From a virus, in the IMG/VR virus record IMGVR_UViG_3300025536_000010, positions 170,887 to 234,886 of that record: a stretch of DNA of 64,000 bases, one strand, 5' to 3'. A program made the position numbers and the translations under genes. Shown here one piece after another: positions 1 to 47,020 of the stretch (position 1 is the stretch's first letter; every line of letters starts with the position of its first letter). Below the pieces are notes generated by a model, which saw only the letters and a list, made by a program, of their open reading frames with translations, made no database searches and was not told the DNA's origin.

Positions 1-1503
1 CCGCGTCGTGTTGTAGTGGCCTTCGCTCTTACCGACCAGGATGTCCCACTTCTCTTGGTTGGCGTAGTGCATCGGCATGATGATCTGCGGGACGTGGTAG
101 CCCGCAAACGTCCAGCGCCGCTCCGGGTAGGCGTGAACCCAACGACCCATGCGCGGGTTGACCGGCTGCCGGCACATCGAGCAGACCACGCCTGGGCACT
201 CCTCGCAGATGTCTCGGTGCCACTTCCCGATCATCCCCCATAGATCCCAGTTCTCGGATGGGATGTTCCAGTGCCCGCAGCCGCCGCGCAGACACTTAAT
301 CATCCACTCGGCCTGGCTGCTGTCCTGCCACAGCGACTCCATCGTATTGTCGAGCGACTTCGGCGTGCCGGCGTACTGCTTCAAGGCCCAGGGTGAGCCG
401 GACAGCGTCTCGTGGATGATTTGCAGGAAGTCATGATTCATGTCCTGCACTTCGTCGATGACGTTCTTGTCGGCCGGGATACCGCGGGTACGCTCGGCGT
501 CGAGGAACGCATAGGAGAAGTACATCGCGCTGCCGTTGATGAAGCTGCGCTGGAGGATCTGGTTGGTCGTCTTCTTGCCGGTGAAGAGGCGGTGGACCGG
601 CGAGTTGTCGATGAACTCCCGAACGTAGTTGTGGGAGAAGCGCCGGATCATCTCGAACAGCGGCGTGACGTAGAGCGTCGAGAAGTAGGGGATGGAGTTG
701 GAGAAGACCACGCCCTGAGCAGCCAGTGAGGTCGAGTTGTGGGACACGACCTTGCCGAGGATGAAGTTGTGGTCTTCTTCGACCTCGATGTCGACGGTGT
801 TGGCCTGACCGTCTTCGTAGTTAGCCCGCACGCGCTCCCAGGCCAGTTCGCCGCATTTCCCCTGCACCGCCAGATAGTCGCCTCGATAGATGTGGCGGAC
901 CATCAGGAACTGTTCAATGTGGTTGTCCGCGTCCCGGGCCAGCAGGCGGTGGTCAGGGGTCACACGGACCTTGAAGCCCGACTCGGTCACCAGGCAGTTG
1001 ACATCTTTGACGCCCGACTGCCAGACTTTGGTGACCTTGCGGGGTGTGAAAGTCTTCCGCGCGTCGGAGAAGGAAATAACAATGTCGCCGACCTTGAGGC
1101 TCTTGGCCGGTACACGCTGCCCGTCCGCCAGCAAAACGAGTTCATTCTCGTCCATGCACTTCGATACCTGCCGCCCCGTTTTGAGGAGCGTGGTGCGGGC
1201 CATGCGCGTGCGGAAGAAGGGCTCGAAGGGGAAGTAGTTGTTCAGCTTGTAGGGCTTGCCCTTGAGCTTGAGCAGCAGCGGTAAGATCGGACGGAGGGAA
1301 ACGCAGTTCCCCTTGCGCAGGAAGTGGCGGGCCAGGACAAGTTTCTTGGTGGCCTCGTCCTCGAAGCCAGTAAGCTCGGGCAGGCTGTCGTAGCCGACCG
1401 GACCAGCCCGGAGGAGAACGGACTTCATCCGTTCTTCCTGCTCAGCCATCCTGACTTCGTTCTCACCGTCAACAGTAAGCTGGTTTTCTGCGTCATAGTT
1501 CAT
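1..1503 (-). CDS. terL: Terminase large subunit, intein-containing, partial (3' end outside window)
   Basis: Read on the minus strand from ATG at 1503-1501 the frame stays open to the window edge (501 codons). The ATPase motor of DNA packaging. Joining residues 110-115 (GRQVSK) to the residues after the intein (STSLAAQG) gives a terminase-type Walker A. Walker B follows as VIDEVQDM (about residue 346). A Cys cluster (KCLRGGCGHW, DICEEC, CSMC) lies further on and is probably zinc binding. The P-loop is split by an in-frame mini-intein (separate entry). AAGGAAG on the minus strand about 8 nt before the ATG is a plausible ribosome site. The start overlaps, divergently, the first plus-strand gene. 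Motor function is inferred from family motifs; the nuclease domain is beyond the window. Confidence 0.9.
   Translation of the reverse strand, partial: MNYDAENQLTVDGENEVRMAEQEERMKSVLLRAGPVGYDSLPELTGFEDEATKKLVLARHFLRKGNCVSLRPILPLLLKLKGKPYKLNNYFPFEPFFRTRMARTTLLKTGRQVSKCMDENELVLLADGQRVPAKSLKVGDIVISFSDARKTFTPRKVTKVWQSGVKDVNCLVTESGFKVRVTPDHRLLARDADNHIEQFLMVRHIYRGDYLAVQGKCGELAWERVRANYEDGQANTVDIEVEEDHNFILGKVVSHNSTSLAAQGVVFSNSIPYFSTLYVTPLFEMIRRFSHNYVREFIDNSPVHRLFTGKKTTNQILQRSFINGSAMYFSYAFLDAERTRGIPADKNVIDEVQDMNHDFLQIIHETLSGSPWALKQYAGTPKSLDNTMESLWQDSSQAEWMIKCLRGGCGHWNIPSENWDLWGMIGKWHRDICEECPGVVCSMCRQPVNPRMGRWVHAYPERRWTFAGYHVPQIIMPMHYANQEKWDILVGKSEGHYNTTR
736..1158 (-). other. Mini-intein (141 aa) inserted in the terminase P-loop
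   Basis: Codons 116-256 of the terminase reading frame. The first residue is Cys (CMDENELVLLADGQRV, block A, then LKVGDIVIS). Block B is visible as VRVTPDHRLLA with the T..H pair. Block F is DIEVEEDHNF, and block G ends in VVSHN with Ser as the +1 extein residue. At 141 aa there is no room for a homing endonuclease, so this is a mini-intein. Removing it joins GRQVSK to STSLA and restores the ATP-binding loop between Lys and Ser/Thr. All splicing residues (Cys1, block B His, penultimate His, terminal Asn, Ser+1) are present, so splicing is predicted to be active. Confidence 0.92.
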
Positions 1504-4097: not shown

Positions 4098-4958
4098 ATG
4101 ACGACCACAGTCAAAGTACGAACCCACACCGCCCACATCGTCGAGTTCGAGGACAAAGAGTACGAGGTCAGCCTGCAACCGGACTCGTGCGTTGATGTCC
4201 AAGTGAAACGTCTCGCGGACGGGTCGCTGGTGATCGGTTACCTCGTCCAAGACACCGACTGTCAACACCCGCTCAACGACTGCGACGGCTCCGGCAAGAT
4301 CTACCGCCGCTACCGCGACGCTCCGCGCGAAGAGAAGGCGCAGTTCTACACGGAGATGGCCGTCGACGAATACGGTGAGAAAACTGGTAAGCCCAACCCG
4401 TACGCCGTGCTGCTCGACGTTTACATCCACTCTGGCGAGGTCTGGCGGGTCCACGGCTCAGGAAAGTATTTCCCGGACGAGCGCTGGGACGTCAGCAACA
4501 CAGCTGGCGTTTGGGTGCCAGACGAGTCCTGCGTCCAGCATATCGAATTGACAGCTGCACAACAGGTACTCGGCGACCGAGGTAAAATCCTCTTCGGTGT
4601 ACCGGGACGCTTCGGCAGCTACGGTTGGGAAGTCGGCACGAGACGGAAAATCGGGCTCAAAAGCCCGTTCAACGCGCTCCGCTCGGCTGTCGAATCCGGC
4701 TGTCATGTTGTGTTCCTCATTTCCTACGGCACGGAGTTTCGTGCTGCCGCTCGGCAAGAGGCCATCCGATGCGCTACCTCGGCGGTCGAAGAGTACAACA
4801 AATGGCTCTCTGGCGACTGCTGGGGCGTCTGCATTGACACTTTCGACGAGGACGGCGAGCCGAACGATAACGACTCCTGCTGGGGTTATATCGGCCAGGA
4901 GTACGCCGAGGAGGAACTTACCTTGGAGATGGAACACAGAGGCAAGCCAACGCCATAG
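4098..4958 (+). CDS. Conserved-looking phage hypothetical protein, 286 aa
   Basis: ATG start. The C-terminal part contains WLSGDCWGVCIDTFDEDGEP and DSCWGYIGQEYAEEEL, a Trp/Cys/acidic pattern I associate with uncharacterised phage proteins of early clusters. A Cys pair in VQDTDCQHPLNDCDGSG may bind metal. No catalytic motif is recognised. Coded between the acetyltransferase and a string of small genes. Confidence 0.6.
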   Translation: MTTTVKVRTHTAHIVEFEDKEYEVSLQPDSCVDVQVKRLADGSLVIGYLVQDTDCQHPLNDCDGSGKIYRRYRDAPREEKAQFYTEMAVDEYGEKTGKPNPYAVLLDVYIHSGEVWRVHGSGKYFPDERWDVSNTAGVWVPDESCVQHIELTAAQQVLGDRGKILFGVPGRFGSYGWEVGTRRKIGLKSPFNALRSAVESGCHVVFLISYGTEFRAAARQEAIRCATSAVEEYNKWLSGDCWGVCIDTFDEDGEPNDNDSCWGYIGQEYAEEELTLEMEHRGKPTP

Positions 4959-4967
4959 GAGGAGCCT

Positions 4968-5390
4968 GTGGTAAAAAAGAAAAAAGCGTTAGCCGTCAAA
5001 CTCGTGCCCGTCCCAAAGGCGTTCATGGAACAGGTAGAGAAAGCCTACTCGGCCGATACCATCGGCGGCCGTGAGCGCCTGCGTGATGTCTTTTTCTACC
5101 AAGGGCTGATGCGCACCACCACGAGTGTCATCTCCGGCGGCGAACGATCCACCGAGGCCACAACCTGGGAGGTCGTGCCGGCCGAGAAATTCAAAGGCAC
5201 GATCCTCAGCTACGCCGACATGCAGCGGCACGCCGACAACGGCACCTGGACATACGAGGGGATGCGCGTCCGCCTGGGTGAGGACTGGTGCGTCCTCACC
5301 CGCGAGATCCGTTTCGTCCTCGACAAGAAAGCGGCCATGCCCGGCGGCGCAGACAACCCGGCACGAGGTAAACCGCAAGGACTGTTCTAA
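4968..5390 (+). CDS. Hypothetical protein, 140 aa
   Basis: GTG start after AGGAGG (4958-4963). Lys-rich N-terminus (VKKKKALAVK) followed by a mixed alpha/beta-looking body (ADTIGGRERLRDVFF, WEVVPAEKFKGTILS, MRVRLGEDWCVLTREIRFVLD). No family recognised. Confidence 0.55.
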   Translation: MVKKKKALAVKLVPVPKAFMEQVEKAYSADTIGGRERLRDVFFYQGLMRTTTSVISGGERSTEATTWEVVPAEKFKGTILSYADMQRHADNGTWTYEGMRVRLGEDWCVLTREIRFVLDKKAAMPGGADNPARGKPQGLF

Positions 5391-5401
5391 CGAGAGACGT
5401 C

Positions 5402-5620
5402 ATGAGCCGACAGCACCTGATAGAGTGTGAGAAGCTGCTGGAAGAGTTCGTCGAGAACATCGACGACACTGGCGGGCTCGGCGAAATGAAACCGGGTGTA
5501 TTCGCGCCCCTGGCCGATCCATCCTGGTCGGACCTGGGTGACCTGTACATCCGGGCGTGCAAGGCTCTCGGCCGGGAGCCAGTGATCGAGCGAATAGAGG
5601 AAGACGATGGCGACGGTTAG
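5402..5620 (+). CDS. Small acidic protein, 72 aa
   Basis: ATG start, 11 nt after the previous stop. Acidic throughout (HLIECEKLLEEFVENIDDTG; C-terminus IERIEEDDGDG), a composition common in small phage early proteins that mimic nucleic acid or bind host enzymes. That role is speculation. Overlaps the next gene by 14 nt. Confidence 0.55.
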   Translation: MSRQHLIECEKLLEEFVENIDDTGGLGEMKPGVFAPLADPSWSDLGDLYIRACKALGREPVIERIEEDDGDG

Positions 5621-5867
5621 CTGGGGTAACGACCAGCATACGCACTTCGTCGGCCGCAACGGTTGTTTCAAATGCTCCGGCATTACCGTACAGACGACCG
5701 ATGGCGATAATCTGCTTGGCCTCGAACCGCTCACCAGCCGCGGCTTCACAGGTCGCTGCTGTATTGAAATCCCGGCGAGCGCCATCGACGGGCTGATTGC
5801 AGCGCTACAAGAAGCCAAGAGGGAGCTACAACCATGCGTTCCGGCACAAACCGCACCCAGGCGTTGA
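5607..5867 (+). CDS. Hypothetical protein, 86 aa
   Basis: ATG inside the 3' end of the preceding gene. Short beta-rich-looking protein with FVGRNGCFKCSGITV and GRCCIEIPASAIDGLIAALQ. The C-x-x-C plus CC could form a metal site. No family recognised. Confidence 0.5.
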   Translation: MATVSWGNDQHTHFVGRNGCFKCSGITVQTTDGDNLLGLEPLTSRGFTGRCCIEIPASAIDGLIAALQEAKRELQPCVPAQTAPRR

Positions 5868-6061
5868 GCCTGGCCCTGGCCAACGCCAAAACGGACGACA
5901 AACCCCGTTACGTCTGGATGTGGGACGGCGTATACTGGGTCGAGCGTGAGCCGCCCAAGGCTGCCTGGGCTGGAACAAATCTGGAAACGGTCACGGTCGT
6001 CAACCCCGAAGGCACGACCGAGACGTTTGACCCGCAGAAACATGGAGAGAAACAATGCTGA
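5834..6061 (+). CDS. Hypothetical protein, 75 aa
   Basis: ATG start overlapping the previous gene by 34 nt. Aromatic core (RYVWMWDGVYWVEREPP) followed by TVTVVNPEGTTETFDPQ. No family recognised. Its 3' end overlaps the Dcd start (AACAATGCTGA), so the two are probably translationally coupled. Confidence 0.5.
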   Translation: MRSGTNRTQALSLALANAKTDDKPRYVWMWDGVYWVEREPPKAAWAGTNLETVTVVNPEGTTETFDPQKHGEKQC

Positions 6062-46541: not shown

Positions 46542-46573
46542 AAACACACTAACCTCTTGTGGGAGAGGTCAGC

Positions 46574-47020
46574 ATGCTCTCGTACTCTATACCTCCGCAG
46601 TCAGCATTTCAACAGTTATCTCCGGCAACTCGACTTAGTTGGGTGGCGGGTCTTATCGAAGGCGAAGGTTACATTAGTATCGGTGGTCGTCGCGGTAGCC
46701 GCGGTGGTCGCTGCCGCTTGTACCTGCGTGTCGGTGTCCGTATGACGGACGAAGACGTAATTCGCCGACTTGCCGATGCTGTCGGTCGTGGGACCGTTCA
46801 CGGCCCGTACCCGAACGGTAAGGGTTGTAAGATCGTGTGGGTGTGGTCGTGGCAGGGTGACGAGGCTAGCGCTTGGGTTACTAAGTGCCTGTCGCCGCTG
46901 CTGTGTAGTAGGCGTAGGCGGCAGATCGTCAAGGTACTCGCCGAAGTAGCTACGTCTATCGAGAATGCCAACGAACCTGGCCTTCATCGGCAAAGATCCT
47001 TGCTGCCTGACTTCTTTTAA
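46574..47020 (+). CDS. LAGLIDADG homing endonuclease, free-standing
   Basis: 148 aa. ATG after GGGAGAGG. The motif LSWVAGLIEGEGYISIGG (about residues 22-39) is a LAGLIDADG helix with the catalytic acid. Then RCRLYLRVGVRMTDEDVIRR, GRGTVHGPYPNGKGCKIVWV and basic region SRRRRQIVKVLAE, the typical single-motif layout that acts as a dimer. Drives its own spread by cutting intron- or intein-less alleles. It has its own promoter and leader hairpin. Neither flank shows an intron. Confidence 0.82.
   Translation: MLSYSIPPQSAFQQLSPATRLSWVAGLIEGEGYISIGGRRGSRGGRCRLYLRVGVRMTDEDVIRRLADAVGRGTVHGPYPNGKGCKIVWVWSWQGDEASAWVTKCLSPLLCSRRRRQIVKVLAEVATSIENANEPGLHRQRSLLPDFF

Follow-up and report, generated by a model that had tools for sequence, protein, structure and literature searches.

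We identified a predicted class 1 mini-intein of 141 aa in the gene for the large terminase subunit (TerL) of a large uncultured phage, where it separates the Lys and Ser of the Walker A motif. It is very probably a cis-splicing intein, and appears to be a vertically inherited relic.

The terminase gene and its insert

The window analyzed here is a 64,000-nucleotide stretch (G000:C1:170887-234886) of a 234,886-bp phage record. The interrupted reading frame was open for 796 aa on the minus strand (L002:5000-7390) and extended past the window, with the remaining C-extein at G000:C1:169999-170886. The host protein matched PHROG 675, 'terminase large subunit' (1.4e-31), and carried both Walker A (GRQVSK-S) and Walker B (KNVIDEVQD). 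Against the Pfam family GpA_ATPase (PF05876) it scored just below the cut-off, while its intein-free relative L013 scored above. No relatives of this TerL were confirmed in bacterial genomes, and no Rfam families or tRNAs were found in the window. The features of the locus are as follows.

1159..1503, minus strand: N-extein of TerL, 115 aa, ending ...LLKTGRQVSK
1159..1176, minus strand: Walker A half-motif G-R-Q-V-S-K preceding the intein
736..1158, minus strand: predicted class 1 mini-intein, 141 aa, in the TerL Walker A between Lys and Ser
1120..1158, minus strand: intein block A, with Cys1 (NCBIfam profiles, alignments)
940..978, minus strand: intein block B, GFKVRVTPDHRLL (Thr67, His70; alignments)
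760..801, minus strand: intein block F, NTVDIEVEEDHNFI (Asp123, His130; NCBIfam profiles, alignments)
736..759, minus strand: intein block G, LGKVVSHN (His140, Asn141; NCBIfam profiles, alignments)
733..735, minus strand: Ser+1, the Walker A Ser and predicted +1 nucleophile of splicing
1..735, minus strand: first 245 of 540 aa of the C-extein, beginning STSLAAQG and containing Walker B KNVIDEVQD

The bounds of the insert given in a preliminary description of this DNA were exact, at 423 nt or 141 codons in frame in TerL. Its other readings of the junctions, a Walker A split between Lys and Ser and the residues Cys1, His-Asn, and Ser+1, were borne out codon by codon. The intein opens with TGC (Cys1, 1158-1156) and closes with CAC AAC (His-Asn); the 5' flank is ACG GGG CGG CAG GTA TCG AAG (T-G-R-Q-V-S-K) and the 3' flank is TCG ACC TCA (S-T-S), giving the junctions GRQVSK/Cys1...His-Asn/Ser. 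Removing the insert in silico restored GRQVSK-STSLAAQG, the same as in intein-free relatives. The GC and GC3 contents of the intein were close to those of the exteins. The Thr-x-x-His motif of block B was present as T67-P-D-H70, and Cys1, Thr67, His70, Asp123, His130, His140, and Asn141 were invariant in an alignment of five inteins hosted by TerL, PolA-like, and methyltransferase-like proteins.

Profile and structural evidence for a Hint domain

The search with intein profiles that the preliminary description had proposed gave matches above cut-offs for Pfam Intein_splicing (PF14890, 9.2e-11) and for both NCBIfam intein-terminal models, N-terminal (TIGR01445) and C-terminal (TIGR01443). The closest solved structures by sequence were the DnaB and Mtu RecA mini-inteins. 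An AlphaFold2 model of the intein, built from five window and locus sequences, was mostly beta with a mean pLDDT of 90.3. Foldseek placed this model on the Mtu RecA splicing domain (2in9) with TM scores of 0.89/0.90, followed by other inteins and hedgehog Hint domains. The insert is confidently predicted to adopt the Hint fold, a match on which the preliminary description had staked its reading. Taken together, the profiles and the predicted model confirmed a real class 1 mini-intein, beyond chance.

Relatives, empty sites, and descent

Scans of IMG/VR with TerL profiles yielded 12 and then 50 loci, many of the 50 being near copies of one another. At 37 of them the P-loop position was intein-free, with GRQVSK/STS or a variant and K/S(T) contiguous, which supplied the empty alleles that the preliminary description had sought among relatives. 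Eight loci were interrupted at Walker B by a different intein (P-loop intact in those inspected), three began beyond the P-loop site, and the remaining two, L003 (identical to L050) and L078, had an insert at the P-loop.

L003 (IMGVR_UViG_3300033412_000631, a 5.9-kb metagenome fragment) encoded the nearest TerL, with 72% identity in the extein. Its intein of 143 aa lay at the same codon, was 56% identical to that of the window, kept all splicing residues, and was without an endonuclease. These two diverged copies bear on whether the insert could be a dead Hint insertion, with TerL working unspliced or another terminase serving. Splicing of the window intein is a prediction and so leaves room for such a state, but all splicing residues were retained in both copies, and the insertion would leave Walker A broken in an otherwise intact TerL. 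We consider a dead insertion very unlikely and a splicing intein far better matched to the locus.

In a TerL tree of 35 distinct sequences, the window and L003 formed one clade (support 100/99), adjoined by the intein-free L013 and L015 (91/97). Since the two intein-bearing TerLs fell in one clade, a single gain of the intein fits. Rough estimates for this pair (two sequences, GC3 0.8-0.98) gave dS values of 0.94 for the intein and 0.70 for the C-extein, and dN/dS values of 0.44 and 0.35, respectively. Roughly read, these distances are what common descent of intein and extein with purifying selection would produce; selection on the intein itself was poorly measured because the same-lineage sequences numbered two. 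The simplest history is a single gain, after which the intein was passed on vertically with no endonuclease.

The intein of L078 (L078:1741-3000) occupied the same P-loop site, had a length of 420 aa, and contained an in-frame LAGLIDADG_3 domain. Its alignment with the window intein was limited to the last 38 residues (block F/G), and recent common descent was rejected on account of this confined similarity. It looks unrelated, an independent hit on the same codon. The first residue of the L078 intein was Thr rather than Cys or Ser, which may be an unusual nucleophile or a changed base.

The absence of homing functions

The preliminary description held that the intein had lost its endonuclease. 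The absence was upheld: no in-frame endonuclease was found in the 141 aa with Pfam, and one hidden in another frame was rejected, as no other coding-strand frame was open for more than 62 codons. Loss is the customary history of mini-inteins but found less support for this lineage, as neither the window intein (141 aa) nor that of L003 (143 aa) had an endonuclease and the endonuclease-bearing intein of L078 was only remotely similar.

The intein might still be mobile if a stand-alone endonuclease in the genome drove its homing in trans, for which the preliminary description had put forward a LAGLIDADG gene at 46574. Such an ORF was present:

46559..47020, plus strand: small stand-alone LAGLIDADG-like ORF, with a LIEGEGYI motif and a match to PHROG 5046

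The ORF matched PHROG 5046 with 2.1e-19, and its match to Pfam LAGLIDADG was sub-threshold (E 0.1). However, it lay 45 kb from terL, had no similarity to the endonuclease of the L078 intein or to the out-of-frame endonucleases, described below, in inteins of related TerLs, and was not found in 11 related records, several of which were fragments. With neither similarity to those endonucleases nor co-occurrence with the intein, trans-homing through this ORF was rejected, and present mobility of the intein is highly improbable. PHROG 5046 is labelled as HNH endonuclease, yet the LIEGEGYI motif looks like LAGLIDADG.

Inteins with out-of-frame endonucleases, and other interrupted genes

The Walker-B inteins of related TerLs (L084:1712-2875, L085:1912-3003, L097:1435-2991, and L074:1759-3012; also L089, L095-L098, and L073) had an unusual arrangement. 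In L084/L089, L085, the L097 group, and L073/L074, the intein ends were present and the in-frame middle was open, with no Pfam endonuclease in it. The +1 frame encoded LAGLIDADG_2 (7.2e-30, 2.9e-15, 8.5e-24, and 9.1e-22), and these hidden proteins resembled one another more closely than did the translations of the intein frame. Of the four arrangements, three recurred across at least two metagenomes, which a single sequencing error does not account for. Nested endonucleases were also observed in a helicase-like intein (L004:2864-4108, LAGLIDADG_2 in the +2 frame) and in two PolA-like inteins (L028:3269-4126 and L034:543-1400, HNH_3 in the +1 frame). Arsenault et al. 2025 (PMC11855218) reported HNH genes lying out of frame within phage insertions other than inteins. 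They cite a preprint (10.1101/2025.01.02.630785) about a 'non-canonical architecture' of inteins, which possibly covers out-of-frame endonucleases within true inteins.

Three further interrupted genes were observed. Elsewhere in the genome of this phage, beyond the window, a gene for a multisubunit RNA polymerase, with Rpb2 domain 6 followed by Rpb1 domains, seems to be interrupted by a split intein (L099:2-2614 and 4528-6000; G000:C1:67500-73500), in the order AQG/CFLAGT...DLMEV and a stop, a 637-aa ORF without a Pfam match, and ...GVLVSN/SKRVAML. In a distant relative, Vibrio phage D69 (OZ195729), terL was cut within its P-loop codons at AGR/QVGKS by a group I intron (L009:6458-6659; RF00028, 92.9 bits); this record opened in the middle of terL, and its annotated TerL starts with MQVGKS. 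A 2343-aa open frame at G010:C1:36524-40051 (the L022 record) had several separate intein-profile matches, apparently with more than one intein in this one gene.

Proposed splicing and persistence

We propose that the intein takes up the Hint fold within the 796-aa TerL precursor, where Cys1 would form a thioester with the upstream Lys and the N-extein would be transferred to Ser+1. Asn141, assisted by His140, would then cyclize, and, as in the established chemistry of class 1 inteins, the exteins would be ligated Lys to Ser into a TerL of ~655 aa with an intact P-loop, GRQVSKS. The nucleotide site would be broken in the unspliced precursor, and we therefore propose that packaging needs splicing. 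As the P-loop would be intact only after splicing, gating of the ATPase is a reasonable reading; from the position of the insert we soundly infer, as is standard and as the preliminary description did, that the precursor, if spliced as predicted, would be inactive until then. Without an endonuclease, the intein would be unable to home by itself and would persist as a relic. Precise loss is presumably rare, and imprecise loss would be lethal by disrupting a gene that the phage cannot do without, which would keep the intein in place.

A position in the catalytic loop that makes activity depend on splicing could also serve as a conditional switch, keeping the packaging ATPase off until a cue, late or environmental (late infection, redox, metal), sets off splicing and so times packaging. 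Regulatory inteins have been proposed for other proteins (discussed in PMC5050341), and the intein has persisted with no endonuclease over a divergence that left the two TerLs 72% identical, but a relic would be retained too. Between the window and L003 orthologues, Cys1 was the sole invariant cysteine, indicating no conserved redox or metal site, and control by redox or metal was rejected on this comparison of two orthologues. Moreover, all five inteins of terminases that were assayed in PMC5050341 readily gave ligated extein. Nothing here favours a regulatory role; we consider a switch unlikely and a splicing relic the better account.

Comparison with known inteins

The site and the host protein have been described before. 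In mycobacteriophages, TerL is the most abundant intein host, and the TerL1-a inteins split the P-loop after its invariant Lys, directly ahead of Thr (Kelley et al. 2016, PMC5050341). The same authors inferred that the TerL active site depends on splicing for its formation, and showed splicing in a reporter for five representative inteins of terminases (at sites b, c, e, f, and g; not site a). The window intein shares with TerL1-a the host protein class and the P-loop Lys/Ser or Thr position, a likeness of position rather than of compared intein sequences. It differs in the profiles matched by its TerL, PHROG 675 and at a weak score GpA_ATPase rather than terminase_1, in the jumbo size of the phage, and in having Ser at +1. 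What is new here is the different TerL family: large uncultured phages contribute one more terminase family to the proteins whose P-loop Lys/Ser or Thr junction is invaded by inteins. The endonuclease-free pair, with its single inferred gain, and the apparently independent, endonuclease-bearing L078 intein at the same codon should be of use in tracing how homing is lost from inteins that nevertheless survive.

Bacillus phage vB_BauM_KLEB27-3 (OM634661) is likewise a jumbo phage with a TerL P-loop intein (GRRIGK/C...HN/T), but that intein measures ~400 aa, its splicing blocks being separated by a long insert, and lies in a different TerL. In Acinetobacter ME3, an intein is located a few residues upstream of the P-loop site (GRR/C...HN/TGKT). 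The Mtu RecA and Npu/Ssp DnaB mini-inteins (2in9, 4o1r, and 1mi8) reside in other host proteins and are 23-26% identical to the window intein, with which they share the Hint fold at TM scores of 0.88-0.89 to the predicted model.
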